A stretch of DNA of 64,000 bases from positions 145,462 through 209,461 of the forward strand of contig JAAEZT010000001.1 of NCBI GenBank assembly GCA_018222765.1, in the 5' to 3' direction. Numbering within the stretch: the first letter of the stretch is position 1; every line of letters begins with the position of its first letter. A model generated the notes under the pieces. The model ran no database searches. It was given only the letters and a program-made list of their open reading frames with translations, and was not told the DNA's origin. Made by a program: the position numbers and the translations under genes. The stretch comes from a bacterium (GTDB lineage Bacteria; Verrucomicrobiota; Verrucomicrobiia; Verrucomicrobiales; Akkermansiaceae). This document shows, piece after piece, positions 30,047 through 50,168 of this stretch.

Positions 30047-30099
30047 GCAGTCCTGACAAGCTGGATTAGCGGGATATTTGATTGCATAGCGGCTCAGTA

Positions 30100-30142
30100 T
30101 CTACAAAAAACGGGCCAAAATCTCGACCCCCCGGCCTCGCTC
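30100..30142 (+). promoter_or_regulatory. Conserved 43-bp upstream element, copy 1
   Basis: Begins TCTACAAAAA and aligns without gaps with copies at 35837 and 37126. Shared positions include TCTACAAAAA, G at 14, CC at 16-17, AA at 19-20, TCTC at 22-25 and CCC at 29-31. It lies 59 bp before the PEP-CTERM lectin-like gene. It is probably an operator or promoter element. Confidence 0.75.
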
Positions 30143-30201
30143 ATCTCTGGGTTTTACGCTTCCTTTGGAGGGAACCTCCCACCAAAACTATATTAATCCC
30201 T

Positions 30202-30915
30202 ATGAAAGCACCACTTGCATCCACCCTTCTACTCGCCTCAATTATCAGTGCTGGCCAGGCCGCAATCATCGGATTCAACGAAGACTTTACCGGCGCAACC
30301 CTGGACCCCGCATGGAATACCAATGGGAGCGGAGGAGCTTTGGACGCCGCAAACGGTGCCTATTCAATCACGAATACCAATGGGAGCGGAGGAACCAAGC
30401 TTTCCCGAAACGAGGGTGGAACTCTCGGAGATTACACCCACATGGTCACCCTTGGCCTAAATTCTTTTATGGGTACTGGAGCTGACGTTAAGTGGAAAAC
30501 CTTCGGTGCTGACGGGTTCACGGAAATTGTCTTCAATAGCTTTGGAAATGTGCGCCAGTTTCACACTGGGGGAAACCTTTATACTAATGTTCCAATCACC
30601 GTTGCCGATGGAGACACTCTGAGCTTCAAGCAAGTTTACACACTCTCCACCAATACGATGGATGTAAGCTATTCAGTCAACGGAGGCGCAGATCAGAGTC
30701 TCTACTCAGGCACAGGAAACGGCGCGAGCGGTTTCCAGAATGTCATCACGAGCTTTGCTGAGGTCGAAGTCTTTGAATTCGGAGCCGGTGATCCTGTTCC
30801 GACCATTACAATTCAAGAATGGAGCCTCTCACCGACTGTTGCAATCCCAGAACCAAGCACATCACTGCTCCTCGTAGGCTGCTTTGCTCTCACGGCGATC
30901 AGACGTCGCCGCTAG
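30202..30915 (+). CDS. PEP-CTERM protein with lectin-like (LamG-type) module
   Basis: A 237-residue secreted protein. The signal peptide (about 1-20, LLASIISAGQAA) is followed by a concanavalin/LamG-like beta-sandwich module: NEDFTGATLDPAWNTNGSGG, GGTKLSRNEGG, DGFTEIVFNSFGN and TMDVSYSVNGGAD. The C-terminus is IPEPSTSLLLVGCFAL plus IRRRR, a PEP-CTERM exosortase signal. The same module recurs at 37250-38251 and 42404-43070. It probably binds glycan or coats the cell surface. The start is the ATG at 30202, preceded 59 bp upstream by the conserved 43-bp element. A strong terminator follows, so it is a monocistronic unit at the left edge of the carbohydrate island. Confidence 0.85.
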   Translation: MKAPLASTLLLASIISAGQAAIIGFNEDFTGATLDPAWNTNGSGGALDAANGAYSITNTNGSGGTKLSRNEGGTLGDYTHMVTLGLNSFMGTGADVKWKTFGADGFTEIVFNSFGNVRQFHTGGNLYTNVPITVADGDTLSFKQVYTLSTNTMDVSYSVNGGADQSLYSGTGNGASGFQNVITSFAEVEVFEFGAGDPVPTITIQEWSLSPTVAIPEPSTSLLLVGCFALTAIRRRR

Positions 30916-30940
30916 TTTCAATTTGTAGTTCGCTTGCGAC

Positions 30941-30972
30941 ACCCGAAACCTTAGGGTTTCGGGTTCTCTTTT
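30941..30972 (+). terminator. Rho-independent terminator after the PEP-CTERM lectin-like gene
   Basis: ACCCGAAACC (30941-30950) pairs perfectly with GGTTTCGGGT (30955-30964) around a TTAG loop, followed by TCTCTTTT. It lies 25 bp after the stop. Confidence 0.93.
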
Positions 30973-31066
30973 GTAAACGGCCAGAATTCCATTTAAAGAC
31001 TACTTGGCGAGTTATCCCCGGAGTATCGCTGCACCCTCCAACCTAAACTCTCCACCCACAAGAATC

Positions 31067-33607
31067 ATGCTAGCTCTCTCCAAACAAATGCGATCTTTTC
31101 TCCTCTCGGGCTGTCTTTTGCCAGGTTTCTCGGTTCTCAACGCTCAAGACAAGGTCAAGATTACCTCCTCGGTCGAAGAGGGCGAGGTTGGATCGCTCCT
31201 CGATGCCAACGAGCCCTCGTCCTCCTCGGACTATCGCATTTCGCGACTCAGCTTTCATCCCAAAAGAGGAAGCACCGAATGGATACAATACGAATTCCCG
31301 GCCGCAACACGGATCGAGAACATCGGAGTCTACTGGTTCGACGAAGCGCAAGCTGGCGCCTACGTCCGCAACGAACGAAAGGAAATCCTTCCCCGCTCTT
31401 GGAAGCTCCTCATTTGGAGAAACGGTCAGTGGCAAGCCGCAAAGACCACAGAAGATCAACTCGGCGTTGAGCGAGATTACTACAATGTCGCCAAGCTCAC
31501 CGAAGCGGTAACGACCACCAAGTTCAAAATCGAAGTCGAACTCCATGACGGACTCTCCGGAGGAATCCTCGGCTGTCAGATTAACAAGGCGTCGACCCCC
31601 GAAGCAGAAAAAACCTTCACCGATCCCGATCAAGAATTGAAACGAATCAAAGCAAAGGCCAGCAAGACCTTGGCTTTGGATGTGGACGAGTTCAACGGCT
31701 ACTCCCACCTCAATGGAAACCGTCCAGAGTTCGACGGCTGGCTCAAAAAGGACAACAATGGGGAATTCCTTGAGAAGAACGTTCCCAAGTTCCTTTGTCC
31801 GAACGAAGACTTCACCGAGGTGTTCAACTACCGCTGGTGGATGATTACTAAGCATCTCAAGGAATGGAAAGAAGACGGCAAAAAATTCTACGTCTTTACC
31901 GAGTTCCCGGGATTCCCAGGCTGGGCCGCCAACAGTGGCGCAATCCCCGCTCCGGCAGGTCATCAGTTTTACGATCTTCGCTGGATGCGTGACTCCAAGT
32001 ATCTCAAATCTTACGCCGAATACTGGCTCGCTGGACCGCCCTCCCGTAAAATGCAAATCCAGAACAATTGCTGGTTGGGAACTCTACCAAGACCTCAGAG
32101 CCACCACTACACCAGTTGGATGGTCGATGCTTCCGAAGCCATGCTCAAGATTCACCCGGATGCGGAGTGGAGAGATCGACTGCTTCCCGCGATGGAAAAG
32201 CACCAGGAAGTTTGGGACAAAATTTTCCAAGTGAAGGCTCCGGGCAAGACAACGGACGGGCTCTACAAGTGCCTCGACATGTATGACGCCAACGAGTTCA
32301 CCATTTCAACCACCCTGAGCTTGATCGCATCTGAAGGCGCGTTCTCTAAATACACCGTCGAAATCAATCAGGAAGAACCCTACAAAGGTCAAGAGCGCTG
32401 GCGGCGCTACTTCACCGATGGAAAAGGCTGGCACCTCGCCTTCGACGAAGGGATGAAAAGCGATCCTCTCGTCTATCCTCAACCATTTGATCTGGAGAAT
32501 TACAACACTGTGCCTCAGCCCTTCGGTGGGAACCACGATTGGTACATCGACAAGAATGGAGAGCGCAAAACAAAGAACCCCAACAGCTATCCAAACTGCT
32601 TCACCGTTCGCCCTTCTCTCAACTGCTACATGTTCGGAAACTACCAGTCACTCGGGAATCTCTACGCGCAAAAAGGCGACACTTCCAAGGCGAAAGAATA
32701 CTCCGAACGAGCCGAGAAACTTCAGGAGAAAATCGTGAGCGCGCTCTGGCATAAGCCTGCCAGCAATGACAAGCACGTCTATTATGAGAAGCGCGGCGCT
32801 ATCAATGATCCCTTTTTCTACTCACGTCTCTCCGGTGATAATCTCTACACTGGAGACGTCGGCGATCCACTAGGGATCATTCGGGAGACGGTTGGTTACA
32901 CGCCTTGGTATTTCAACATGCTCCCCGAGGAGGACGCGCAATACGATATTGTTTGGAAACAATTGGCCGATGAAATGGGCTTTAAGCAACCCTTCGGAAT
33001 GTCCACCGCCGAGTATCGTCACGACTTTTTCAACGAGATGTCCTACGGCTGGAATGGCCGCGGTTGGCCCTTTCAAAACTCTGTCGTTTACAAAGCCTTC
33101 GCCAACTACCTCCGGAATTACAAAGACTCTCGCGGTGACATCTCCGAGGAAGATCGGAAGTTACTCTACCATCACATGAGGCAATATGTGGAACTCCACG
33201 GTCGGAGACGCACCATCGGCGAATGGTATCTCCCCCGCACCGGAGGCTACCGCATGCCGGGCGGTGGCGACGTTGTGCAAAGCTCCCCCGCGATGGGCAA
33301 AGGTTTCGGTGACGTGCAGGACTACTTCCACTCCACCTTCCCCGACATGTTGATCGAGGATTTACTCGGCTTCCAATCCAAGCACAAAAAAGAATTCACC
33401 ATTCACCCTCTGCTCCCTGAGGACGAATGGGACTACTTCTATTTGGGAGACCTGCGCTACCACGATCATGAGGTCGACATCCTTTGGAAAAAAGACTGGG
33501 ACGAGAGCAAGCCCGGCAATCAATCCAAGCTCATCGTCTGGATTGATGGGAAGCGGGCTGCTGAAAGCTCTAAGTTGACACGCGCCTTGCAAGTTCCACT
33601 CCCTTGA
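31067..33607 (+). CDS. Secreted glycoside hydrolase, GH63/MGH1-like, with F5/8-type domain
   Basis: An 846-residue exported enzyme. The signal peptide (about 1-27) is followed by an F5/8 type C (discoidin-like) carbohydrate-binding domain (about 30-175; STEWIQYEFPAATRIENIGV). A long six-hairpin (alpha/alpha) domain then resembles the MGH1-like/GH63 group, with CLDMYDANEFTIS, GYTPWYFNMLP and NGRGWPFQNSVVYKAFANYL, the last similar to the NGxxWP segment of that clan. A short C-terminal beta region ends the protein. It likely cleaves exo-linked sugars outside the inner membrane; specificity is unknown. The start is the ATG at 31067. It opens a run of hydrolase genes, with only 40 bp to the next. 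Confidence 0.8.
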   Translation: MLALSKQMRSFLLSGCLLPGFSVLNAQDKVKITSSVEEGEVGSLLDANEPSSSSDYRISRLSFHPKRGSTEWIQYEFPAATRIENIGVYWFDEAQAGAYVRNERKEILPRSWKLLIWRNGQWQAAKTTEDQLGVERDYYNVAKLTEAVTTTKFKIEVELHDGLSGGILGCQINKASTPEAEKTFTDPDQELKRIKAKASKTLALDVDEFNGYSHLNGNRPEFDGWLKKDNNGEFLEKNVPKFLCPNEDFTEVFNYRWWMITKHLKEWKEDGKKFYVFTEFPGFPGWAANSGAIPAPAGHQFYDLRWMRDSKYLKSYAEYWLAGPPSRKMQIQNNCWLGTLPRPQSHHYTSWMVDASEAMLKIHPDAEWRDRLLPAMEKHQEVWDKIFQVKAPGKTTDGLYKCLDMYDANEFTISTTLSLIASEGAFSKYTVEINQEEPYKGQERWRRYFTDGKGWHLAFDEGMKSDPLVYPQPFDLENYNTVPQPFGGNHDWYIDKNGERKTKNPNSYPNCFTVRPSLNCYMFGNYQSLGNLYAQKGDTSKAKEYSERAEKLQEKIVSALWHKPASNDKHVYYEKRGAINDPFFYSRLSGDNLYTGDVGDPLGIIRETVGYTPWYFNMLPEEDAQYDIVWKQLADEMGFKQPFGMSTAEYRHDFFNEMSYGWNGRGWPFQNSVVYKAFANYLRNYKDSRGDISEEDRKLLYHHMRQYVELHGRRRTIGEWYLPRTGGYRMPGGGDVVQSSPAMGKGFGDVQDYFHSTFPDMLIEDLLGFQSKHKKEFTIHPLLPEDEWDYFYLGDLRYHDHEVDILWKKDWDESKPGNQSKLIVWIDGKRAAESSKLTRALQVPLP

Positions 33608-33622
33608 CGTAAAACATTAGCT

Positions 33623-33632
33623 GGAACGTTCC
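33623..33632. promoter_or_regulatory. Palindrome GGAACGTTCC before a hydrolase gene
   Basis: A perfect 10-bp palindrome located 15 bp before the start of the hydrolase gene at 33648, in a 40-bp gap. It could be an operator, but single 10-bp palindromes also occur by chance. Confidence 0.25.
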
Positions 33633-33647
33633 GCTTCTTAACTGGTC

Positions 33648-35819
33648 ATGTTACTCTTTAAAATGGGCATCGTATTTGCGTGCCTTTTCTCTCTGATCTT
33701 TGGCACAGCGGCAAATGCTGACGAAAAGCCCAAGTTCACCGACTACTGCGAGCGTCTCGAGCAAGAAATCCAGGGAAAGAAGCACGGCTTCCTCGCGGGG
33801 AACGTGACTTATTATGTCGGCGGGTATCACGCCAGCTGGAAACTTTACGAAGACGAAACCATCGGGCTAACCCACCCTTTTCATCACGATCTCCGCGGTC
33901 GTGGTGCCGCCCTCGTTGAGAGTGGAATCAGCGGTAGCGAGAATACCGGAAGAGGAAACGACTTCATGAGCTGGGAGTTCTACAAGGACACCCGCGTTCT
34001 CTACGGCAGCGTCATCATTGATGGAAAAACTTACAAACATCCAAAGCCTACGAGCATGCGTTGGCGACCCGACAAGATGATCTGTGAGTATGAAGTCGCC
34101 GGCGTTACGCTCAGGGAAGAAAAATTCATCGGCGCCAATGATGCCGCGGCCTCCATCATCACAGCTTCAAAACCGGTCATCCTCCAGTTCTCCGGTCAGA
34201 GTCTCTTCACTAGGAACAGCGTCTCCTCTTCCGCGACGATCAGATATGATGCCAAAACCAAGGCTCTCGTCATTGCCGAAGCCGGAATGATGAAAGCCCG
34301 ACCCGACCCCGATGGCCCTGAGCGCGTCGGCCCCTCCATCTACACCGGCATGAGCACGGTGATGGGCTCCTCTCGCCAGTTCGCGGAATCTCTGGTCACC
34401 AAGAGGGACGAGAAAGGCATCCAGCATTACACCTTCTCCGTCCCCTGTGACACCAAGGGTACAGTCGTTTCCTGGGCGATGCATGACGACGAAGCCCCCG
34501 CCCTTCAGGCCGCAACCGAGATCATCAAAAATCACCAGTCCTTGCTCTCAGCCAAGACCGCCGAAATGAACCGGCAGCTCAATGAGGAGATCCCCTACTT
34601 TCGGTGCCCAAACGACAAGTTTGTCGATATCTACTATTACCTCTGGTCGCTCTACCTCATGTATCATATCGAAGTGGGTAAGGGATGGGAACTCGAGGGA
34701 CACACCCAAACCGCGGTGAACAATTTCCTCGGACTTCACCGCTATGATGCGGCCTTCCAAATCAAAGTGGGAGCCTGGACCACCGACAAACGCAGGTTCG
34801 CCTATGGCAACGTCCTTACCTGGAAACACCTCACCGAGAACAACCGCTTCCGGGAACACCCCAACGGGGCCCGGGAGATTTCTGACAATAAAGGCACCAC
34901 TTGGCACAGCGGCGCCTACGGACCTGAGACTTCAGAACACATCCTGGGAGCTTGGCAGATCTACCAACACACAGGCGACTTGGACTTCCTTCGGGATGCT
35001 TACGAAGACCATTTCGAGAAACTCTTTCGCAAACGCCTCACCGGTTTCGCAATGAACGACTTCGAGGTTGGCGACACCCTCGAAAACATGGCTCGCGTCC
35101 TCGGCAAGGAAGATGACGTAAAGCACTGGAAAAAATTGATCCGCCGTGACCCCGAACACATCCGGCTTATGTTCGACCAGCGTTGGGAATTAAACGGAGT
35201 GCCCAACTACTTCGCAGCCCCACCAAACAAAATGCTCATGACCAATGCATTTTGGGCCATGCGCTCTCCCTATTTCCCAAAAGAATACGCGCAAGCGATG
35301 GTTGAGGACTGGGCTCTTGATCGAGAGAAAGGCTTTTACGGCGAATGGTTCCCGCTCGCAATGGCTAAGGAATCGGCAAAGAGCTTCGCAACCCAAGACG
35401 ACCATGCTTTCGGCTACACTCCCGACACCGCCTACTTCACGCTCGACGGGATGTTCCGCCAGGGTCTCGTGGCCGAGGCCACCGAGCTAACCCTCAACCA
35501 CCTCTCGCACTACAACTACCACCACGAATGGAAGATCCCTGTCGCCCCCGAAGCCTACGAGCGCGATCTCACCCTCTTCGGCGACCAATATTCCAACTTC
35601 AATGCCGGTAAGATCCTCCTCTATCTCGAAGGCATGGGGGGGCTGAACGTATCCCTCCCGGATCAAAAACTCACCCTTCGTCCCGCATTACCCAAAGCCT
35701 GGGAGTGGATGGAGATCCGGCTTCCCATTCAAAACCAATGGACGCATATTCACTATCGCCACGACCGAATCCAAGTCAAGGGCAGCCCAATTCCTTGGGA
35801 ATTATTTAAGCAGCCCTAA
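33648..35819 (+). CDS. Secreted six-hairpin-type hydrolase, paralogue A
   Basis: A 723-residue exported protein with a signal peptide (about 1-24). The body starts with a beta-rich domain (GLTHPFHHDLRGRG, MRWRPDKMICEYEV) and continues as an all-helical barrel. Motifs include PYFRCPNDKFVDIYYYLWSL, HTQTAVNNFLGLHRYDAAFQ and FGDQYSNFNAGKILLYL. The layout (beta-sandwich plus (alpha/alpha)6 barrel) is that of many glycoside hydrolases, but I cannot assign a GH family. It is clearly paralogous to the C-terminal two thirds of the protein at 42404-45505. Acidic residues conserved in both, such as the Asp in HR(Y/F)DA, are candidate catalytic groups. It sits between a GH63-like gene and an aldose epimerase. 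Confidence 0.8.
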   Translation: MLLFKMGIVFACLFSLIFGTAANADEKPKFTDYCERLEQEIQGKKHGFLAGNVTYYVGGYHASWKLYEDETIGLTHPFHHDLRGRGAALVESGISGSENTGRGNDFMSWEFYKDTRVLYGSVIIDGKTYKHPKPTSMRWRPDKMICEYEVAGVTLREEKFIGANDAAASIITASKPVILQFSGQSLFTRNSVSSSATIRYDAKTKALVIAEAGMMKARPDPDGPERVGPSIYTGMSTVMGSSRQFAESLVTKRDEKGIQHYTFSVPCDTKGTVVSWAMHDDEAPALQAATEIIKNHQSLLSAKTAEMNRQLNEEIPYFRCPNDKFVDIYYYLWSLYLMYHIEVGKGWELEGHTQTAVNNFLGLHRYDAAFQIKVGAWTTDKRRFAYGNVLTWKHLTENNRFREHPNGAREISDNKGTTWHSGAYGPETSEHILGAWQIYQHTGDLDFLRDAYEDHFEKLFRKRLTGFAMNDFEVGDTLENMARVLGKEDDVKHWKKLIRRDPEHIRLMFDQRWELNGVPNYFAAPPNKMLMTNAFWAMRSPYFPKEYAQAMVEDWALDREKGFYGEWFPLAMAKESAKSFATQDDHAFGYTPDTAYFTLDGMFRQGLVAEATELTLNHLSHYNYHHEWKIPVAPEAYERDLTLFGDQYSNFNAGKILLYLEGMGGLNVSLPDQKLTLRPALPKAWEWMEIRLPIQNQWTHIHYRHDRIQVKGSPIPWELFKQP

Positions 35820-35836
35820 AGCCATCAAGCCCACTT

Positions 35837-35879
35837 TCTACAAAAATAAGACCAAACTCTCAATCCCGCACTCTTGCCT
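35837..35879 (+). promoter_or_regulatory. Conserved 43-bp upstream element, copy 2
   Basis: TCTACAAAAATAAGACCAAA begins this copy. It lies 35 bp before the aldose 1-epimerase start and aligns without gaps with the copies at 30100 and 37126. It marks a probable transcription start within the hydrolase gene run. Confidence 0.75.
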
Positions 35880-35914
35880 GCAGATCGAGGCATCCACTGT
35901 AATCCCATTATTCC

Positions 35915-37081
35915 ATGAAATTATTCCACTCTACCTCAACCTTACTCTCTGCCCTTGTCATGACCCTCGCTTCATCCTGCTCCGACCCCGAGAATAACGA
36001 GAATCAACCAACACTCGAAACCTCTGTCTACGGAACACTGCCCGATCAGCAGGAGGTGAAAATCTTCACTCTCACAAACGCAAACGGCATGACCGCAAAG
36101 GTCACCGAATACGGTGCCATTTTGGTATCCGTCACCAGTGCCGACAAAAATGGCAAACAAGCCGACCTAACCCACGGTTACGATGACCTAGACGGATGGC
36201 TCACCAACACTTCCTACTTTGGTTCGAGCGTGGGACGCTTTGGCAATCGAATCGCGGACGGAAAGTTCACTCTTGATGAAAAAGAGTATCAGCTCGCAAC
36301 TAACAACGACCCCGGCGGCATCCCCTGTCATTTGCACGGCGGCATCAAAGGCTTTGATAAGGTTCTTTGGAAAGGCGAGCCATTCGAAACAAAGAACGCC
36401 AGAGGAGTCAAATTCACCTACGTCAGCGCCGATGGCGAAGAAGGCTATCCCGGAAAGCTTACTGTCGAGACGACATACACGCTCAATGACAAAGACGAAT
36501 TGAGTTGGGAAACACAGGCCACCACTGATGCTCCCACGATTTTGAATATCGTGCACCATTCCTATTGGAACCTGAGTGGCGACTCTTCGACCTCGATCAA
36601 TGACCACGAACTCACTCTCTTTGCAGACCACTACCTTCCCACAAATGCTGGCCTGATTCCAACTGGAGAAAAAGCTCCCGTGAGCGGAACACCGCTGGAT
36701 TTCACCGAAGCAACGCCAATTGGAAAACGGGTCGGGGAGGACTTCGAAGCGCTCAAACTGGGCGGCGGCTACGACCACGCTTGGGTGCTTCGTGGCGACA
36801 AGGAGGGCGAACTCACCAAGGCGGCCAGACTACACGATCCAAAGTCGGGAAGAATTCTCGAAATTCTCACCAACCAGCCCGCAATCCAATTTTACGGCGG
36901 GAATTTTCTGGATGGAAAAGTCACCGGAAAAAACGGCCAAAAATATCAATACCGGACCGCACTCTGTCTGGAAACCGAAGGGTGGCCGGACGCTCCAAAC
37001 AACCCCTCAGCTCCAAGTGCCGTCCTTCGCCCTGGAGAAACTTATCGCCACATCATGGTTCACCGCTTCTCTGCGGAATAA
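35915..37081 (+). CDS. Aldose 1-epimerase, lipoprotein form
   Basis: A 388-residue galactose-mutarotase-like enzyme that interconverts alpha and beta anomers of aldoses. The N-terminus is a lipoprotein signal (TLASSCSDPE, lipobox LASSC with Cys22), so the enzyme is exported and lipid-anchored, unlike cytosolic GalM. The fold is shown by SVGRFGNRIADG, CHLHGGIKGFDK (substrate His), NIVHHSYWNLSG (second His) and CLETEGWPDAPNNP (the catalytic Glu; usual text is ETQHFPDSPN). Placing an epimerase outside the cytosol fits processing of sugars freed by the neighbouring hydrolases. The gene is preceded by a copy of the 43-bp element. Confidence 0.92.
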   Translation: MKLFHSTSTLLSALVMTLASSCSDPENNENQPTLETSVYGTLPDQQEVKIFTLTNANGMTAKVTEYGAILVSVTSADKNGKQADLTHGYDDLDGWLTNTSYFGSSVGRFGNRIADGKFTLDEKEYQLATNNDPGGIPCHLHGGIKGFDKVLWKGEPFETKNARGVKFTYVSADGEEGYPGKLTVETTYTLNDKDELSWETQATTDAPTILNIVHHSYWNLSGDSSTSINDHELTLFADHYLPTNAGLIPTGEKAPVSGTPLDFTEATPIGKRVGEDFEALKLGGGYDHAWVLRGDKEGELTKAARLHDPKSGRILEILTNQPAIQFYGGNFLDGKVTGKNGQKYQYRTALCLETEGWPDAPNNPSAPSAVLRPGETYRHIMVHRFSAE

Positions 37082-37125
37082 TTTCACATCAGCGAATTGC
37101 GCCGAGCAACTGCTCCGGTTCGACT

Positions 37126-37168
37126 TCTACAAAAACTGGCCCGAAATCTCAACCCCACAATCTCGCTT
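37126..37168 (+). promoter_or_regulatory. Conserved 43-bp upstream element, copy 3
   Basis: TCTACAAAAACTGGCCCGAA begins this copy, 81 bp before the lectin-like gene at 37250. C(A/G)AAA-type segments recur 12 bp apart within it and in the other copies (positions 5 and 17), which could be direct half-sites for a regulator. Confidence 0.75.
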
Positions 37169-37249
37169 ACCACCGGCTTTGCATCTAGTATTCAGTTGCG
37201 AAATTGTCGCTAGGACTAGTTCCCCAAAAACAAACACCGAATTATCGAC

Positions 37250-38251
37250 ATGAGAAACATCAAACAGACCATTCACAGAGGGAAAAACAATCCGGTTTTC
37301 GTGGTTTTGGCGGCCTTCGCTTGGATTCCGTGTGCCAAGGCGCAAGTCGAGTTTTTCTCTGAAGACTTCACCGGGCCTCTCGATACAGGCGTCTGGTCTC
37401 AAAACGGGAACGCAAATGGCCACACCGGAATTGAGGATGGCTCTTATGTCATGACCGCCGAAAATGGTGCTGGCGGAACAAAGCTGGTCCGCTTCATTGA
37501 TGGCACCGCTGGCTCATTCCGAAATGAAATCGAAGTGGATCTGGAACCCTTCCGTCTTGATGCCAATCCCGGCACCCAGTCGGATTTTAAATGGAAAATG
37601 TTCGGCCCCGACGGCTTCATGGAAATCGTTCTCAACAGCTTTGGAGCGATGCGCTTGTTCCATAATGATTCAGACGGAGGAGGCGGAAACATCCAACCCA
37701 ACACCAACATCGAAATCGCGGATGGCGATCGATTGAAGCTTGTCTATGAGTACAATATCGACACGGATAAAATTACAGTCACCTACGCCCTTAACGACGA
37801 CCCCGAAATCCTGTTTTATAGTGGAGGAGGCATCGATGGGCCGATTGGCGATATCATCACGAACTTTGTTGAGGTCGAGAATTTCAAATGGGGCAGTAAT
37901 CAGGCCATTAAAATTGTCACCGGCATAGACTACTGGAATCTTGTCGATCCGCTTGTCGATCCTGTCGACCCTTCGGAGCCCGAGCCGCTAGCGATCACCG
38001 AGATTGACTACGATCCTGTCGCCGACACTTTCCGCTTCACATGGAATTCAGAGCCCGGAAAAATCTACGCAATCAACTGGGGCTTCGATCTTACCACCTG
38101 GGACTTTGACATCTCAGACGACATTGCCTCTCAAGGAACGACCACGACCTACCCAGCTCTCGAAGAGCCAGCCGAGCCTAACCCTGGGGCAACACCCAGT
38201 GGTCCTCCCAGGGTGATTTTCTTCCGAGTTGAGGAACAATCCGCGCCATAA
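37250..38251 (+). CDS. Secreted lectin-like (LamG-type) protein
   Basis: A 333-residue exported protein. The signal peptide (about 1-32, FVVLAAFAWIPCAKA) is followed by the same lectin-like module as the PEP-CTERM protein at 30202: SEDFTGPLDTGVWSQNG, GGTKLVRFIDG, FGPDGFMEIVLNSFG and KITVTYALNDD. A proline/aspartate-rich linker leads to a C-terminal domain with FRFTWNSEPGKIYAINWGFD and LTTWDF, a motif common in secreted Verrucomicrobia proteins. There is no PEP-CTERM tail. It probably binds the substrate or another surface component. The next gene starts 31 bp downstream, so it leads a likely three-gene operon with CotH and the fused hydrolase. Confidence 0.8.
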   Translation: MRNIKQTIHRGKNNPVFVVLAAFAWIPCAKAQVEFFSEDFTGPLDTGVWSQNGNANGHTGIEDGSYVMTAENGAGGTKLVRFIDGTAGSFRNEIEVDLEPFRLDANPGTQSDFKWKMFGPDGFMEIVLNSFGAMRLFHNDSDGGGGNIQPNTNIEIADGDRLKLVYEYNIDTDKITVTYALNDDPEILFYSGGGIDGPIGDIITNFVEVENFKWGSNQAIKIVTGIDYWNLVDPLVDPVDPSEPEPLAITEIDYDPVADTFRFTWNSEPGKIYAINWGFDLTTWDFDISDDIASQGTTTTYPALEEPAEPNPGATPSGPPRVIFFRVEEQSAP

Positions 38252-38282
38252 TCGCCTGCCGATCTATTTATTCTGTAATCTG

Positions 38283-41200
38283 ATGTGGAAATTGCCCCTG
38301 CTATCCTGCATCGGCATCGCGTCAGGAGCTCCCGTCATCAACGAGATTCACTTCAACCCGCCGGAGAATCCGGTGAGGCAGGAGTTCATCGAAATCTACA
38401 ATCCCGGACCTGACGCGGTCGACCTCAATGGCTGGCGAATTTCTTCGGCCGTCGACTTTACCTTCACCAATCCGACGCCACTTCCGGCAGGCTCTTTCGT
38501 CTTGATTGCAGAAGACCCGGCGACGATGGCGTCTACTTTCGGCGTGTCGTCTCACGGCCCTTGGCTTGGAAAGCTTAATTCCGATGGCGAGACGGTTCGA
38601 CTCCGTGACACGACTGACTCCGTGATCGATGAAGCCGACTACAAGGTGGGATTCCCCTGGCCCGTCACCGCGAATGGCGGAGGCCCTTCAATCGAGCTCA
38701 TCAGCGCGGATCTCGACAACGGACTTGGCAGCTCGTGGCGGTCCTCTCTCTCCGATCCAACACCAGGAAGGATCAACAGCGTCTTCGCGTCAAATGCCGC
38801 GCCCGGAATTCGCAAAGTCACCCACTCGCCAAAGACGCCGACTTCCAGTGATACCATCACCATTACCGCGCGGATCACGGATCCCGATGGTGTCGCTTCG
38901 GTCGCGCTCGACTACCAGCTTGTCACTCCCGGCAACTACCGCCCCTCCCACCTTCCCCACCCGATCGTGAGCAGACGCATCCCGGCAGCCCTCACCAACC
39001 CGGAGACTCCCCTCTCCGAAAATCCAGACTACAACGATCCCGCGAATTGGACCATCCTTACGATGCAAGACGACGGACTTGGTGCCGACGACCTCGCCGA
39101 CGACGGCATCTTTAGCGTGGCAATCCCTCCTCAATCACATCGCACCCTACTACGTTATCGTATCACAGTAGAGGATGAAGAAGGCCTCGCCGCGCGCGTT
39201 CCCTACCCCGATGATTCCGCACTCAACTTCGCATGTTTCATCTACGACGGTGTGCCCGATTACAACGGCCACTCTTCGGAGGATCTGACAACCCTACCTC
39301 TCTACCAGGTGATCACGCGCGACGCTGATTGGCGCGAATGCTACGCCTGGAGCTCGTCCAACCAAATCAATCAGGGTGAAGGTCACCGTGACCGCCATTT
39401 CTACAACTGGACCGGCACCTTCGTATACAACGGCGTTGTTTATGACAATATTCGCTACCGATTGCGCGGAGCCAACGGCCGTTATCAAAAGAGCGGCAAG
39501 CGTTCGATGCGCTTTCGCTTCAACAATGGCCACTACATTCAAGCGCACCGACAGGACGGCACTCCCTTCAAGAAAAAGTGGCGCACTCTCACCACAGGAA
39601 AGGGATTCGAAAACCGTGGCACTCTCACCTACTCGCTCAACGAAGCGATCAATATGTTTCTTTGGAACAAAATCGGCCTACCTGCCCAAGACACTCTGTG
39701 GGCGCACCTGCGGGTCATCGACAGCGTCGAAGAAGCCCCGGATCAGTGGCGTGGTGACTTCTGGGGCCTGCAGTATGTTGTCGAAACCTATGACGTCCGC
39801 TTTCTCGAGGAGCACGGACTGCCCAAAGGAAATCTCTACAAGTTGATCAATCAGGAAAAAGGCTGGGAGCGACAACAACGATACCAGGGAGCCTTCGCAC
39901 CGACCGACGGCTCGGACCACGACACCATTGAAGACACCCTGACTGGAAACAGCAGTGAGGCCTTTATCCGCGAGCATGTCGACCTCAAGAAATACTCCCT
40001 TTATCACGGCCTCTCCGAAGCAATCCGGAGCTACGACTTCTGGCCCAGTGCCAATAAGAACATGGCTTACTACTTTTATCCCGACTACACGGCCAGCAAC
40101 GAAGGCAAAGGCAAGTTGTGGATCTTGCCATGGGACAGTGATGCCACCTGGGGACCCTCTTTTAACGAGGGACATGACGTGGTCTACAATTCCATCTTTC
40201 CCACGACCTCAACCGGAGGTGATAACGCCTCCACTCCGGAACTCTGGCCCGATTACTACAACACCATTCGCGAAATCCGTGACCTCCTCTGGCAGGAGGA
40301 CCAAATAAGCCCGCTGATTGAACAATTTTCCGAAGTGATCGCGCCTATTATCCCGGCAGACTCTGATCGCTGGAAGGGCTCCCCGCCGGATGCTGGAAAC
40401 TACAACGCGCTCGGCGGAAAGGGTGCGATCTCGCTCGACGCATTGGTCGAAGACCTCAACAACTTTGCGTTCGTCGGAGGAAGCTGGCCCGGCGGCAATG
40501 TGGGATCCGGTGGCCGCGCGGCGCACCTTGACAGTCTTGACGTCACAAGCGGCGAGGCTGAGCTCATCCCCGAAACCCCCACCCTCACCTATTCAGGCAC
40601 GGCGGGTTTTCCGAGCGATGGATTAGCCTTCGATTCCTCTCCCTACGCAGATCCCCAGGGTGACGGGAGCTTTGCTGCGATGGAATGGCGGATTGCTGAA
40701 GTCACGCCACCCGGCGGTGGACTTCTCACCATAGTCCCCGCGGGCTCGAACTGGAAGTATCTCGATGACGGGAGTGACCAAGGCACCGCATGGCGGGAAC
40801 CGACATTCGAGGACGAGAGCTGGCCCACGGGCGGCACTCCGGCCGGATATGGTGGAATTTCCGGCGTCGATACTTTCGCAACAACCATCGACTACGGCGG
40901 TATCAATTTCGACCGCCACGAAACCACCTATTTTCGTCGCAGCATCAATCTCGATGATCCCTCTGTCCTCGAATACGTTGAGTTTAACTTGCACCTCGAT
41001 GACGGTGCGGTGATTTACGTCAATGGAACCGAGGTCATCCGCGACGGCTTCGATCCGGACACGGTGATCGCCTACGATGTGCTCTCCGATGATTCTGGAA
41101 ACGAAGGCATCTTCGACAGCTTTCGGATCAGCCCATCATTCTTCGTCGCTGGCGAAAACATCATCGCTGTCGAACTCCATCAAGATTCCCGGGGCAGTAG

Positions 41201-42386
41201 CGATTTGGTTTTTAATCTGGAAGTCACAGCAAAAGAACCTCTGGTCCCAACCGGAGAGACCTTACAGATGGAATGGGACGCCGTCTGGGAATCCGGCGAA
41301 CAAAACACCTTCACGACATCCCAGGCCATCCCATCGGCTCCGATCCGCCCAGGCAGCACCTACCGCGCTCGCGTTCGGCATCAAGACGACACCGGACGTT
41401 GGAGCCACTGGTCAGAGCCCCTGCAGTTAATCGCATCAGCACCAGACACGACCTCTCTTAAGCAAAGCATTGTCATTTCTGAAATCATGTATCACCCAGC
41501 TGATGCCACCCCGGCGGAAGAAGCACTTGGTTTCAGCGATGAAAGTTTCGAGTTCGTCGAAATCACCAACATCGGAAACGCCACTATTGACCTCTCAGGC
41601 CTCCGTTTCACCAAAGGGGTTGATTTTGATTTTCTCGAGGGTGCCCTCACCGATATCGCCCCTGGAGCGCGCGTTCTCGTGGTCAACAACCAAGCCGCCT
41701 TCGAGTCACGTAATGGGGCTGGTCATCCCATCGCCGGCGAATGGGAAATAGGCGACCGCCTCTCCAACAGCGGCGAACAGCTCAAATTATCATATGGCGC
41801 AGGCATCCCGATTCGTGACTTCGTTTACTTCGACGAATCACCTTGGTCTTCGGCACCAGATGGCAATGGCTTTTCCCTCACTTTGATTGATCCCAACTCC
41901 AACCCCGACCATGGCGACCCAGCAAATTGGCGCCCCAGCGTCTCCCAAGGAGGAAGTCCGGGCGACGAGGATGCCTGTAGCTTCGCCTCTTGGGCCGCAG
42001 GCTTCGGACTCACGCCAGACGACCCGAATCTCGACATCGACAAAGACGGGATTGGCTTATTTCGAGAATATGCGCAAGGCGGCCGGCCTGACGCCGCGCT
42101 TCCTGAAGAGGGACTCATTCATCTTAAAATCGAAGACCTCCTCATCGAGCAATCTCCTTCCCCTTACGTGCTCCTCAGCGTCACTCGCAAGCTCGCCGCC
42201 GATGACCTTGAACTCCGCATCGAGAGCAACTCAGGCTCCCTCTCCGGTCCATGGGAAAACGTCACCGACGAGTTCGTCCTGCACTCTCATCAACCTCTTG
42301 CCGGCGGAAACGCCCTCTTACAATACCGGAGCCCCCGACGAGACGATCCCCAACAATATTGGCGGTTAAGATTCATCACAAAGTAG
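38283..42386 (+). CDS. CotH-kinase and lamin-tail giant secreted protein
   Basis: A 1367-residue exported protein. After a short signal peptide come a lamin-tail domain (about 18-160; INEIHFNPPENPVRQEFIEI) and a spacer. A CotH kinase-like domain follows (about 350-640) with NIRYRLRGANGRYQKSGKRS, NMAYYFYP and ILPWDSDATWG, the last carrying the conserved Asp of CotH. Next is a galactose-binding-like domain (about 815-980; YFRRSINLDD, DDGAVIYVNGTEV), a fibronectin-like segment, and a second lamin-tail domain (about 1060-1200). CotH of Bacillus phosphorylates spore-coat proteins; relatives here may modify extracellular proteins. The start is the ATG at 38283. The stop lies 17 bp before the fused hydrolase gene. 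Confidence 0.85.
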   Translation: MWKLPLLSCIGIASGAPVINEIHFNPPENPVRQEFIEIYNPGPDAVDLNGWRISSAVDFTFTNPTPLPAGSFVLIAEDPATMASTFGVSSHGPWLGKLNSDGETVRLRDTTDSVIDEADYKVGFPWPVTANGGGPSIELISADLDNGLGSSWRSSLSDPTPGRINSVFASNAAPGIRKVTHSPKTPTSSDTITITARITDPDGVASVALDYQLVTPGNYRPSHLPHPIVSRRIPAALTNPETPLSENPDYNDPANWTILTMQDDGLGADDLADDGIFSVAIPPQSHRTLLRYRITVEDEEGLAARVPYPDDSALNFACFIYDGVPDYNGHSSEDLTTLPLYQVITRDADWRECYAWSSSNQINQGEGHRDRHFYNWTGTFVYNGVVYDNIRYRLRGANGRYQKSGKRSMRFRFNNGHYIQAHRQDGTPFKKKWRTLTTGKGFENRGTLTYSLNEAINMFLWNKIGLPAQDTLWAHLRVIDSVEEAPDQWRGDFWGLQYVVETYDVRFLEEHGLPKGNLYKLINQEKGWERQQRYQGAFAPTDGSDHDTIEDTLTGNSSEAFIREHVDLKKYSLYHGLSEAIRSYDFWPSANKNMAYYFYPDYTASNEGKGKLWILPWDSDATWGPSFNEGHDVVYNSIFPTTSTGGDNASTPELWPDYYNTIREIRDLLWQEDQISPLIEQFSEVIAPIIPADSDRWKGSPPDAGNYNALGGKGAISLDALVEDLNNFAFVGGSWPGGNVGSGGRAAHLDSLDVTSGEAELIPETPTLTYSGTAGFPSDGLAFDSSPYADPQGDGSFAAMEWRIAEVTPPGGGLLTIVPAGSNWKYLDDGSDQGTAWREPTFEDESWPTGGTPAGYGGISGVDTFATTIDYGGINFDRHETTYFRRSINLDDPSVLEYVEFNLHLDDGAVIYVNGTEVIRDGFDPDTVIAYDVLSDDSGNEGIFDSFRISPSFFVAGENIIAVELHQDSRGSSDLVFNLEVTAKEPLVPTGETLQMEWDAVWESGEQNTFTTSQAIPSAPIRPGSTYRARVRHQDDTGRWSHWSEPLQLIASAPDTTSLKQSIVISEIMYHPADATPAEEALGFSDESFEFVEITNIGNATIDLSGLRFTKGVDFDFLEGALTDIAPGARVLVVNNQAAFESRNGAGHPIAGEWEIGDRLSNSGEQLKLSYGAGIPIRDFVYFDESPWSSAPDGNGFSLTLIDPNSNPDHGDPANWRPSVSQGGSPGDEDACSFASWAAGFGLTPDDPNLDIDKDGIGLFREYAQGGRPDAALPEEGLIHLKIEDLLIEQSPSPYVLLSVTRKLAADDLELRIESNSGSLSGPWENVTDEFVLHSHQPLAGGNALLQYRSPRRDDPQQYWRLRFITK

Positions 42387-42403
42387 CTTCGCACGCCGAT
42401 CAA

Positions 42404-45400
42404 ATGATTTCATTAGCCCAGCTTCAGGTCGCCGCCTCCCTGCTCATCGCTTTGGCGAGCACCAGCTGGGCACAGGTTCAAAATTTTGCAGATAACTTCG
42501 AGGGAACAGACTTGGATCCGGAATGGACTGCCATCAATCCCGCAGCCCACGACGGCTTCGATGGAACCGGTCATTATCTCATCCGCGGCCCCCAGAGTTC
42601 CACTGCCGGACTCCGACGCGACGTCGGAGGACAAGGTGACTTCACCGCCGAGGTAAGTCTTGAACTCGGCCCCTTTTTTCTCAACGGATCCGGCGGCACC
42701 CTGTCTGATCTCAAGGTTCGCTTCACCGGGCCGGGCGCCTCGCTCGAAGTAGTCTTGAACAGCTTTAAGAACCTCAGAGCCTCTTCATCGGAACTCGGAG
42801 GCAATCTCGAAGACCCGATCTCAGTGGGCGGGATCGAAGACGGAGATGACTTCAATCTTCAATTTAATTATCAGGAAGCAAGCAACACCATGACGGTGAG
42901 CTACTCCGTCAATGACGACGCATGGAGTCAACTTACCTCCGCAGTCGGCATCACTCCTACGGCTCTGCAAACTTCCGAGATCGTTCTGTTCAAGTTCGGC
43001 GACAACGAGGCGACTTTACCGCGCATGAAGCTCGATCGTTACGAGGTGTCCAATCTTGACTATGCCCCGGTCACCTCAGGTTTGGAACTCATCTCGGGCA
43101 CTGATGACAGCATCATCACCTGGGACAGCAAGCCCTCGAAAATCTACCAGGTCCAATGGTCAACTGATCTCATCAACTGGCTGCCAGCGGCGAATCATCT
43201 TCCGGCCACCCCGCCAACAAACACCGAATATCTCAAAGGGGTTAGTAGTGGGCCCAAGGGCTTTTTCCGAATCAGCGAACAAGACGCCACCACCTGGCCT
43301 CACGAAAACTACTGCACTATGCTCACTCAGGAAATTCAGGGGAAGAAGCATGCCTTCCTCGCTGGAAATGTGAGCTACTATATTGGAGGGCAATACAACG
43401 TTTGGAATCTTCAGGAACACGAAACCTTGGGATTGACCCACCCCTTCCACCACGACCTGCGCGGGCGTGGGATTGGCATTGTTACAGAAGAAACCACCGG
43501 AACCGGTCACGACTTTCAAGGCTGGGAATTCTACCGGGATTCCAAGGTCGCCTATGGCACGGTCCTCGTAAACGGACAATCCTTCCCTAACCCCGTCCCT
43601 AAAAAAATGTTTTGGCGGCCTGACCGGGTGATCTGCGAATACGAAGTCGGTGGCGTCGAAATTCGTGAGGATAAATTTATCGCTCTCAACGACGTCGCGT
43701 GCACCCTCATCACGGCCTCTGAGCCAATTGAAATTCAGTTCGCCGGTCAGAGTTACGTTAGCAGTAATCGCAGCGTGCAAACAACCTCCACCGTTCGCCA
43801 CGACACCACAAACAACATGGTGCATGTCACCGAAGGCGGCACGGCATTAGCGCGACCGCTTGAAGGAACCGACATGGAGGGAGCGCTCATGTATGACGGA
43901 ATGAGCACGGTAGTCTCAACTTCCGAAACCTTTACCGACTACTCCGCATTTAAAGATGTCGACGGACGACAGCAGTATTCTTTCAAAGTAGCCTGTGGTC
44001 CGGAAGGCGTCGCCCTCGGCTGGGCAATGCACGACACTTTTTCCGATGCACGCGACCGGGTGAGCACCGTCCTCGCTGACCCGGCAGGACACCTTGCTGC
44101 CAAAACGGCACACATGAACGACCTGCTGACGAACCAGATTCCCTACTTCCGTTGCTCCGACCCTGACATCGTCAATATCTACTACTACCTTTGGGCAATC
44201 TACCTGATGTATTACATCGACGTCGACGAAGGATGGGAAGTCTACCCGCACACCCAGACCGCGGTAAATAATTTCATGGGCATGCATCGCTTCGACGCAA
44301 ACTTTCAGATCAAGGTGGGCGCTTGGGTCGCGGATAAAGATTACTATGCCTACGGCAACGTGCTCACATGGTCTGCCCTGCTCCCACATGCCAAGTCCGG
44401 CGGCAGACTTCCGGACAACATGGGCCAGTCTTGGTTCTCACCCGTGTGGGGAGCGACCACCGATCATGTCATCGGCGCGTGGGACATTTACGAACACACC
44501 GGCGATCTCGGCTTCATCGAAGACATCTACGAACCCTATTTCAAACCACTCTTCTGGGACGGAATGCTGAAACATTGGGGCGCGAGTTACGATGCGGTCG
44601 AATGCCTCAAGCAGATGGCCATCCTGACTGGAAATCCTGCTGACGTGGCTCACTGGCATTCGGTGGGTGACGTCGACAATCTCGAGAACTGGATGAACAG
44701 TGAGTGGGAACGGGCGGAGCCTGACTACTGGGGGAATAACGCTGCTGCGATTTATCCTCCCGGCAGCCCCGACCGCGCACTCTACTGGACCGGGATGGCC
44801 TACATGCGCAATAACTGGTTCCCCGAGGATTGGGCACGCCGCATGACCGACACCTGGGCGGTCAATAGCGAGACTGGTTTCAACGGCCCGGTCCCGCCGA
44901 CTCTGGTCGCGATGCAAGATGTCGATCACATCTTCCCTGACTTCGCCTCCGCTCCCGACCTCGCCTACTACTCAATTATGGGCATGTATGATCGCCACGT
45001 TGGTAAAAACGCTAATATCATGGGGCTCGGACACCTGAAGAAATACAACCTCAAGTGGGGCATTCCAGTCGCCCCCGAATCGTACGACAGCGGTTGGGAA
45101 ATCTGGGGAGACCAATACTCCAACTTCAATGCGGGTAAAATCCTTCTCATCCTCAACGGCATTGCCGGACTGGATTACTCGATCCCCGACGGCACGTTTG
45201 AAATTGCTGATCACATGCCCGAGGAGTGGAGCTTCATGGAACTCAAAGTCCCGGTCACACAACCCGGCCAAACCGATTGGGTCGATGTCCGTATCGACCG
45301 CTCCGATCTTGGTAATGGCGTGACTGAGAAGACCGTCACTGTGACCGGTAATCCACTCCAGACCTTAAAAATCCAACCGTGGCTTGAAGAAAACATCCTC

Positions 45401-45505
45401 ATCAAATCCCCGACTGGACAGGACGCCGATTCCCCCACCGGCCATCAATCGTATTCCTTCGACGCCACACCAACGGCGACTGTCACGATTCATCTTCAAG
45501 AGTAA
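42404..45505 (+). CDS. Secreted fusion: lectin-like module plus six-hairpin hydrolase, paralogue B
   Basis: A 1033-residue exported protein. After the signal peptide (about 1-23, ALASTSWA) comes the lectin-like module (about 24-225; FADNFEGTDLDPEWTAINP, LEVVLNSFKNLR, TMTVSYSVNDD). A short domain with ITWDSKPSKIYQVQWSTDLI follows (about 230-300). A hydrolase region (about 305-1033) is paralogous along its length to the protein at 33648: EIQGKKHAFLAGN, GLTHPFHHDLRGRG, HTQTAVNNFMGMHRFDANFQ and GDQYSNFNAGKIL. The fusion ties glycan binding to the catalytic body. The start is the ATG at 42404, just after the CotH gene. It ends 11 bp before the convergent regulator gene. Confidence 0.82.
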   Translation: MISLAQLQVAASLLIALASTSWAQVQNFADNFEGTDLDPEWTAINPAAHDGFDGTGHYLIRGPQSSTAGLRRDVGGQGDFTAEVSLELGPFFLNGSGGTLSDLKVRFTGPGASLEVVLNSFKNLRASSSELGGNLEDPISVGGIEDGDDFNLQFNYQEASNTMTVSYSVNDDAWSQLTSAVGITPTALQTSEIVLFKFGDNEATLPRMKLDRYEVSNLDYAPVTSGLELISGTDDSIITWDSKPSKIYQVQWSTDLINWLPAANHLPATPPTNTEYLKGVSSGPKGFFRISEQDATTWPHENYCTMLTQEIQGKKHAFLAGNVSYYIGGQYNVWNLQEHETLGLTHPFHHDLRGRGIGIVTEETTGTGHDFQGWEFYRDSKVAYGTVLVNGQSFPNPVPKKMFWRPDRVICEYEVGGVEIREDKFIALNDVACTLITASEPIEIQFAGQSYVSSNRSVQTTSTVRHDTTNNMVHVTEGGTALARPLEGTDMEGALMYDGMSTVVSTSETFTDYSAFKDVDGRQQYSFKVACGPEGVALGWAMHDTFSDARDRVSTVLADPAGHLAAKTAHMNDLLTNQIPYFRCSDPDIVNIYYYLWAIYLMYYIDVDEGWEVYPHTQTAVNNFMGMHRFDANFQIKVGAWVADKDYYAYGNVLTWSALLPHAKSGGRLPDNMGQSWFSPVWGATTDHVIGAWDIYEHTGDLGFIEDIYEPYFKPLFWDGMLKHWGASYDAVECLKQMAILTGNPADVAHWHSVGDVDNLENWMNSEWERAEPDYWGNNAAAIYPPGSPDRALYWTGMAYMRNNWFPEDWARRMTDTWAVNSETGFNGPVPPTLVAMQDVDHIFPDFASAPDLAYYSIMGMYDRHVGKNANIMGLGHLKKYNLKWGIPVAPESYDSGWEIWGDQYSNFNAGKILLILNGIAGLDYSIPDGTFEIADHMPEEWSFMELKVPVTQPGQTDWVDVRIDRSDLGNGVTEKTVTVTGNPLQTLKIQPWLEENILIKSPTGQDADSPTGHQSYSFDATPTATVTIHLQE

Positions 45506-45516
45506 GAAATCAGTCA

Positions 45517-46680
45517 CTACGAAGAAAGAGAACTTGCCTCCATCCGCAACTTTCTCGGCGTAACACCCCGCTCTTTTTTCAAGACATACCCTAGGTATTC
45601 GTGATGCCGAAATCCGCAACGTTCGGCTATGTCAGCAAAGGTTAGGTCGGTGAACTGAATCAACTTCTCGGCTTGCCGCAACCGCCGCTCGGCCAAGAAT
45701 TCGCGGAGACTCATCCCAACCTCGGCCCGGAAGCGAACTTGCATTCGGGTTCTTGAAAGACCCACCGCTCTCGCGATTGTCTCATTGGTGATCGGTTCCG
45801 AGAGATGTTCGCGCATGAACTGGATCGCATTTCTTACACTGGCATCAGAAATACTGCGAGCGTCAGAAGAATCGCGGACGACAATCTCATTGGGAGGAAT
45901 CAAAATCCGATCGGAGGACACGGGCGTATCGTCGATCAATCGATTCAACAGACTGGCAGCTTCGAATCCCACCTTCTGATGCCCGCCTCGAATACTTGAG
46001 AGGTTCGGCGTTGCCACCTCACAGAGAGCGTGATCATTATCCACACTCACCACTGCGACTTCCTCGGGCACGGTAATATCCGCGGCCCGGCAGGCCTCAA
46101 CAAGAGTCAGGCCACATTGATCGCTGCACGTCATCATCGCTAATGGTTTGGGGAGCGAGAGGAGCCATTCCTTGAGTTTGGAAAAGTGCGCGCTGTTGCA
46201 TTCCGAGATCCCACGAAGTGAATTAAGGGAAGCATACGATTTCCCGCTCGCGGTGGCTTGACGAAAAGCATCCTCCCGCCGCCGCGACCAACTCTCCCCT
46301 TCAATCCCATAAAAAGCAAAATGATCAAAGCTCCGATCCAGAAAGTGCTTCGCTATTTTTCCAGAAATTTTTTCATCATCGACCCGCACCAAGGGCAAAT
46401 CGTGATTGGGTACCCCCAGGACATCGACAACCGGGATCTCTAATTTCTTCAGAGCACTCAACATCCCTTCGTCTTGGATACGGGCAATGACGCCATCGCC
46501 CTCCCAGGATTCCAACCAATCAGGGACGACATCCTCAAGACCACGGGGAGCATACAGGAGCTCCCAATTTCCGACCTGCCGGGAAAATTGAGAAATCCCC
46601 CGAAGAATCGATCTCCCCGATCCGAGGGAAGATTCAACCAAGAGGGCGATCCGCTTACGCTTTGAGGTTTGAAGTTTCAT
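45517..46680 (-). CDS. XylR-type regulator (LacI-like sensor plus AraC HTH)
   Basis: A 387-residue DNA-binding regulator. The N-terminal part (about 1-275) is a type 1 periplasmic-binding/LacI-like sugar-sensor domain (RKRIALLVESSLGSGRSILR, VVSVDNDHALCEVATPNLSS). The C-terminal part (about 285-380) is an AraC-family double HTH (ETIARAVGLSRTRMQVRF, ADIAERCGFRHHEYLGYVLK). XylR of E. coli has the same architecture and activates genes on xylose binding. Here it is the last gene of the ECF-FecR-sulfatase operon and convergent with the hydrolase arm, so it is a good candidate for controlling that arm. The sensed sugar is unknown. Confidence 0.92.
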   Translation of the reverse strand: MKLQTSKRKRIALLVESSLGSGRSILRGISQFSRQVGNWELLYAPRGLEDVVPDWLESWEGDGVIARIQDEGMLSALKKLEIPVVDVLGVPNHDLPLVRVDDEKISGKIAKHFLDRSFDHFAFYGIEGESWSRRREDAFRQATASGKSYASLNSLRGISECNSAHFSKLKEWLLSLPKPLAMMTCSDQCGLTLVEACRAADITVPEEVAVVSVDNDHALCEVATPNLSSIRGGHQKVGFEAASLLNRLIDDTPVSSDRILIPPNEIVVRDSSDARSISDASVRNAIQFMREHLSEPITNETIARAVGLSRTRMQVRFRAEVGMSLREFLAERRLRQAEKLIQFTDLTFADIAERCGFRHHEYLGYVLKKERGVTPRKLRMEASSLSS

Positions 46681-46704
46681 TTGTGCAATTCCCTGTAATA
46701 TTCG

Positions 46705-48306: not shown

Positions 48307-48315
48307 TGGACGTTT

Positions 48316-49638: not shown

Positions 49639-50168
49639 TGTCTCACCTCCTCTTGCCCCAACTGAGCTTCAACGCATCTTTGTAAATTGCGGCGAACTCG
49701 ATTGAGTTTTTTGTAAATCTTATTGGCTGTCTCCCCAGCTTGCTCGGAGAAGGACCGAATGGTCGCGCCTTCGCGATAGCACCCCTTCACGATTTCAAGC
49801 TCGTCCGGCGGCAGCTTTTCCACACAGAAATCAAGAGCACGCTGTCTGAAATCGAGATCATCTGCTCGTTCTTCGGCTTCATCAGCGAGCATCGCGATGA
49901 GCTTTTCACTGAAGACATGACGGTCTCGTTTGTTCTTCGACAAAAGGTTGAGCGCTTCGTTTTTAGATATTTGAAACGCCCAAGCCCTGAAGTTAGTCCC
50001 CAGCTCGAAACTCTCGAATCGACGCCACATGGTCACACTTGCCCGCTGAACCACATCTTCGGCGTCCGCCTTGTGCTTCACCAGAGACAGTACGAACGAA
50101 AAGATCGCCGCTTCATTCCTCACGTAGAGGGAAACGAATTCTTCGTGTCGTGATTGATCTTCAGTCAT
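49635..50168 (-). CDS. ECF-type RNA polymerase sigma factor
   Basis: A 177-residue sigma factor with region 2 (about 15-85; DAEDVVQRASVTMWRRFESF and NFRAWAFQISKNEALNLL) and region 4 (about 120-170; ATIRSFSEQAGETANKIYKK). It matches the sigma-70 group of the Rhodopirellula/Verrucomicrobium type. It would redirect RNA polymerase when its FecR-like partner, translationally coupled downstream, signals. It is the first gene of the operon with FecR, sulfatase and XylR-type genes and faces a 405-bp divergent intergenic region. Confidence 0.92.
   Translation of the reverse strand: MTEDQSRHEEFVSLYVRNEAAIFSFVLSLVKHKADAEDVVQRASVTMWRRFESFELGTNFRAWAFQISKNEALNLLSKNKRDRHVFSEKLIAMLADEAEERADDLDFRQRALDFCVEKLPPDELEIVKGCYREGATIRSFSEQAGETANKIYKKLNRVRRNLQRCVEAQLGQEEVRQ

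Follow-up and report, generated by a model that had tools for sequence, protein, structure and literature searches.

A tandem direct-repeat element at three promoters as a predicted galactose-responsive operator of a XylR-type regulator in Verrucomicrobiales

The element and the genes behind it

The window, that is the whole 64-kb stretch of DNA that was analysed, contains a short element in three copies, each in front of a gene or a group of genes on the plus strand (Table 1). An earlier note on this DNA had described three copies that align without gaps (at 30100, 35837 and 37126) and lie 59, 35 and 81 bp from the start codons. Sequence inspection and alignment confirmed the copies, the ungapped alignment and the distances. 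The length of 43 bp given there holds only in part, as the copies are real but the conserved unit begins about 5 bp further upstream, and a conserved TTG has to be added at its 3' end.

It was found that the 25-bp core TCTACAAAAANNNNNCCRAAMTCTC matches the plus strand of the window at these three positions without a mismatch, against a chance expectation of 0.01 even at three or fewer mismatches in dinucleotide shuffles. The whole genome (4.33 Mb, 87 contigs) was covered by pattern searches together with matrix scoring of the fetched loci. The three window sites are its only copies of the core with 0-1 mismatches. A refined pattern finds the three sites at 0-2 mismatches, and the sole other match in the genome has 3 mismatches and no matrix support. 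Matches with 2-3 mismatches elsewhere (L004-L011, L172) score below 4 bits with the matrix and were discarded as sites. A scattered repeat family, for which a genome search had been suggested, is thus ruled out; the element occurs only three times in the genome and always at a promoter. The copies are genuine, confined to one region and tied to promoters.

Table 1. Features of the element and of the associated genes (coordinates of the window; bits, score with the site matrix; self-match, identical positions of the element at offset 21)
Feature	Coordinates	Strand	Remarks
Site 1	30094..30127	+	half-sites CAGTATCTACAA at 30095 and CAAAATCTCGAC at 30116 (21 bp later); upstream of PEP-CTERM lectin-like gene 30202-30915; 43.5 bits; self-match 7/12
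Site 1 -35-like hexamer	30137..30142	+	TCGCTC, at fixed distance from the half-sites
Lectin-like PEP-CTERM protein	30202..30915	+	first gene behind site 1; paralogue of 37250
MGH1-like/GH domain protein	31004..33607	+	distantly resembles the beta-L-arabinobiosidases 5mqr and 6m5a; probably part of the transcript from site 1
Protein with GH65 C-terminal-like domain	33648..35819	+	probably co-transcribed from site 1
Site 2	35831..35864	+	half-sites CACTTTCTACAA at 35832 and CAAACTCTCAAT at 35853; upstream of galM 35915-37081; 42.0 bits; self-match 6/12
Predicted galM promoter	35874..35903	+	-35 TTGCCT, 18-bp spacer, -10 TGTAAT; predicted from consensus
Galactose mutarotase (aldose 1-epimerase, galM)	35915..37081	+	behind site 2
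Site 3	37120..37153	+	half-sites CGACTTCTACAA at 37121 and CGAAATCTCAAC at 37142; upstream of 37250-38251, 38229-42386 and 42251-45505; 55.9 bits; self-match 7/12
Predicted promoter of the 37250 operon	37163..37191	+	-35-like TCGCTT, 17-bp spacer, -10-like TAGTAT; predicted
Lectin-like protein	37250..38251	+	behind site 3
Lamin-tail-domain (LTD)/CotH kinase protein	38229..42386	+	behind site 3
Large ORF	42251..45505	+	overlaps the end of the CotH gene; orthologues in the clusters of relatives
XylR-type regulator, proposed binder	45517..46680	-	PBP1_XylR/Peripla_BP_3 sensor and AraC-type HTH_18 (Pfam)

The genes behind the three sites had been taken to be otherwise different. This is wrong for sites 1 and 3, as the lectin-like proteins encoded at 30202 and 37250 are paralogues with 40% identity. 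Part of the large ORF at 42251 is also related to them (32%), which suggests that the cluster grew partly by duplication. This ORF and the CotH gene overlap by about 135 bp, and translation of the ORF probably begins at a more downstream position. No site was found at the galactokinase gene of this genome, which lies elsewhere (C42), and part of the galactose pathway would therefore lie outside the regulon here.

The protein encoded at 45517-46680 combines an N-terminal PBP1/LacI-like sensor with a C-terminal AraC double HTH, as is typical of the XylR class, and it matches E. coli XylR (4fe4/4fe7) over its full length (residues 6-380, E 8e-53). No second full-length protein of the XylR type was found in the genome. 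Matrix scoring revealed no site of its own for xylR in the window, and the three sites are distant from it. Genes for an ECF sigma factor, a FecR-type anti-sigma factor, a sulfatase and XylR lie head to tail on the minus strand (45517-50168) with gaps of about -3 to 25 bp; this order and the small gaps indicate that xylR is probably co-transcribed with the other three.

Anatomy of the element

For the analysis of the element, stretches of up to 20 kb around about 30 orthologues of the regulator were scanned with a matrix made from the first ten sites. Clear matches were obtained, and the reversed matrix gave almost none. The consensus of 28 non-redundant sites is ..GtcCGATtTCTACAAA.at..g.CCg.atTCTCAA......a..cTTG. 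When the 28 sites were compared with themselves at all offsets, a peak was observed at 21 bp with 6.75 matches out of 12, as compared to 1.75-4.93 at other offsets, and the three window copies alone gave 7, 6 and 7. Two direct half-sites about 21 bp apart, the arrangement that defines a tandem operator, are thus present both in the 28-site set and in the window. The element is a direct repeat whose two half-sites are exactly 21 bp, or two helical turns, apart. This spacing of direct repeats is known for AraC-type operators. The earlier note had placed half-sites of the form C(A/G)AAA 12 bp apart; offset 12 scores only 4.04 out of 12 in the 28-site set and is also the weaker spacing in the three window copies, so this proposal was dropped. 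The CAAA pair is a by-product.

A TTG (columns 48-50) follows the half-sites at a fixed distance, with T in all 28 sites, T in 23 and G in 27. It fits a -35 hexamer, and the constant position of the half-sites beside a putative -35 resembles an AraC-type tandem operator. Many copies continue after 17-18 bp into a TANNNT-like -10, giving promoters of the form TTGccN-18-TANNNT, for example TTGCCG-18-TAGAAT in L154 and TTGCCT-18-TGTAAT before galM in the window. Inspection against the promoter consensus gave no convincing -10 for site 1. Start codons lie 34-39 nt 3' of the -35-like TTG, both for the window's galM and for the majority of the galactokinase copies (L141-L163). This leaves almost no room for a leader, and the galM and galK messages are probably leaderless or nearly so; with its ATG at 35915, the predicted galM mRNA would be nearly leaderless.

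Among the three closest genomes, positions in the half-sites are conserved to 96% and the flanks to 83% (p 4e-4), and all three copies are kept in the same places in the close relatives G008 and G017. The second half-site is weak in some relatives, which counts against the reading as an operator, as do the poor -10 of site 1 and the galactokinase gene of this genome that has no site. In two such loci (L156 and L158) the first half-site is kept and the second is degenerate, and the regulators are 51% identical to the one described here.

Distribution and gene context in relatives

The site is found beside XylR orthologues of 49-96% identity. In four genomes (G016, G019, G023 and G025) the core is present with two mismatches on contigs that carry an orthologue of 74% identity. 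The genes behind the site in the 74% relatives are galactokinase, the orthologue of the 31004 hydrolase and lectin-like genes. G253 has the site before both lectin-like genes and, as a weak match, before galactokinase. Eighteen relatives with a XylR of 49-70% identity have it between xylR and a divergently transcribed galactokinase gene; galM and a sodium:solute symporter often come next. The galactokinases tested in relatives exceed the TIGR00131 cut-off. In many relatives of family f2 (L146-L149, L152, L156, L158, L163) the xylR-galK pair is likewise flanked by genes of the sigma/FecR type.

A stringent pattern of the element was found in 17 of 387 genomes of the order, namely in 14 of the 33 with the XylR orthologue as compared to 3 of the 354 without it (Fisher p 3e-14, a value that ignores shared ancestry). 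The reversed pattern gave no match in the 387 genomes. One of the 3 exceptions, the match in G383, fails the matrix and was rejected as a chance match. The other two that carry the pattern without an orthologue (G339 and G186) have the site before galactokinase. In G186 a broken XylR-like remnant lies at about 2303-2695 of L195 (C253), next to a galactokinase-like gene and a site that looks intact, and the regulator may have been lost there recently. The matrix scan detected no site at more distant XylR-type loci (34-43% identity). As a point against the proposed pairing of site and regulator, G085 and G170 have orthologues of 52% identity with no detectable site nearby, though also with no galactokinase in the fetched stretches, one of these contigs being only 4 kb long. 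A phylum-wide draw of 388 genomes gave no further close orthologue.

In the HTH region, Q314 (HTH1) and H359-x-E-Y-[LM]-G (HTH2) are invariant or nearly so in the orthologues that have the site and are mostly replaced in the others; they are putative recognition residues. Three rows of this alignment (L116, L046 and L053) are disregarded, as their sequences were taken from the wrong strand.

The proposed regulator and its signal

The earlier note had taken the element to be regulatory and had named the XylR-type protein at 45517 as the leading candidate to bind it. Comparative genomics strongly supports this assignment, through the co-occurrence with the orthologue and through gene context. 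We consider it very probable that the element is the tandem operator of the regulator at 45517-46680. What the sequences show is the site with its anatomy, its conservation, its restriction to these promoters, its co-occurrence with the orthologue and its gene context; that the regulator binds it, that it activates rather than represses and that galactose is the ligand are inferences. The HTH domains of the regulator would bind the two direct half-sites, with the consensus CGATtTCTACAA and CgnwtTCTCAA, on one face of the DNA at a spacing of 21 bp, or two helical turns. From its position directly upstream of the -35-like hexamer at a fixed distance, the bound protein could touch RNA polymerase as an AraC-type activator does. 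Galactose, or a breakdown product that contains it, would most probably be the inducing ligand. In this genome the liganded regulator would turn on galM together with the genes for the secreted glycoside hydrolase and for the lectin-like and CotH proteins; in relatives its targets would be galactokinase, mutarotase and a Na+/sugar symporter.

The common denominator of the linked genes is galactose, and by this linkage the regulator is probably a galactose sensor, most likely a galactose-responsive activator. Genes of the Leloir pathway stand behind the site, namely galM in the window and galactokinase in 18 relatives, as in a galactose regulon. The linked genes are galactokinase, mutarotase, symporter and glycoside hydrolases, not the xylA/xylB/xylFGH set that an E. 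coli-type xylose regulon controls. The cluster in the window probably serves a galactose-containing glycan. On balance we favour a broader reading, in which this Verrucomicrobiales clade of XylR-type proteins would be a galactose regulator, an AraC-headed stand-in for GalR, with a new 21-bp tandem operator and nearly leaderless galK and galM; in the lineage of the window it would control a secreted glycan-degrading cluster and leave the galactokinase of the genome outside the regulon.

It could also be that the same protein chiefly represses, or that it has a dual role at the divergent genes xylR and galK, as the site lies between these two genes in relatives. This is unlikely, because a site just upstream of -35 in constant phase is typical of activators (AraC, XylS, XylR), and xylR of the window is far off and without a site of its own. 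Another regulator linked to xylR, such as the ECF sigma/FecR pair (48316-50168), is a quite improbable binder: these genes are found close to xylR both here and in many relatives of family f2, but tandem 21-bp direct repeats fit pairs of AraC-type HTHs and not the -35/-10 promoter of an ECF sigma factor, and no such genes are present in the fetched stretches of the site-bearing L109, L144, L150, L159 and L160. The similarity of the copies might be left over from duplicated promoter regions, if the lectin paralogues (30202 and 37250) had brought their upstream DNA along. Besides the relatedness of the two proteins, a stretch of 55 bp is 75% alike between sites 1 and 3. Site 2, however, precedes the unrelated galM, and in another family conservation before galactokinase falls on the same columns, with no constraint visible in the spacers. 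Duplication could account for the origin of one copy but not for the persistence of the half-sites alone, and the galK sites of the relatives already largely refute it, so that it is highly improbable. A riboswitch-like RNA leader, suggested by the position upstream of coding starts, is next to negligible, as the element has no match in Rfam and, with the TTG only 34-39 nt ahead of the start codon in galM and in the majority of galK copies, it would fall outside the transcript.

The predicted operator of the XylR-type regulator is newly mapped; the kind of switch, that of AraC/XylR-type operators, is already known. No earlier description of the regulator or the motif in Verrucomicrobiota was found in the part of the literature that was covered. 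The organism groups with Akkermansiaceae MAGs of marine type. Marine Verrucomicrobiota use many hydrolases and sulfatases to break down complex glycans from algae and elsewhere, yet a DNA site or a signal is known for few of their regulators. The analysis provides a testable operator with its regulator, a likely inducer and a boundary of the regulon. Together these give a handle on the glycan that the cluster serves, which is probably galactose-containing.

In the arabinose operon of E. coli, the AraC operator I1-I2 is a pair of direct half-sites with a spacing of 21 bp, immediately before the -35. The arrangement is as here, whereas the sensor domain and the DNA sequence differ. The gal regulon of E. 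coli is governed by GalR and GalS, which have a LacI/GalR-type sensor; GalR recognizes palindromes through a LacI-type HTH and acts as a repressor. As predicted here, galactose kinase and mutarotase genes are placed under a regulator with such a sensor, but the present regulator has an AraC-type HTH, direct repeats and a likely activating role. E. coli XylR (4fe4, 4fe7) is the same two-domain protein over its full length, with a LacI/GalR-like sensor and an AraC HTH, and its operators at xylA and xylF are likewise described as direct repeats (Ni et al. 2013, as quoted in PMC12125979). The half-site sequence and the HTH recognition residues differ here, and the predicted targets are galactose and glycan genes and not xylA/xylF. 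In Vibrio, XylRA is a XylR-type activator of beta-1,3-xylan use, and its binding to direct-repeat sites was proven by gel shift (EMSA) (PMC12125979). As in the present case, a motif of two direct repeats precedes several promoters within a polysaccharide locus, and the effector in Vibrio is a monosaccharide (PMC12125979). The Vibrio system has an AT-rich xylose motif and xylose as effector and belongs to Gammaproteobacteria (PMC12125979), whereas the element described here has a half-site of the CGATTTCTACAA type and is linked to galactokinase and mutarotase.
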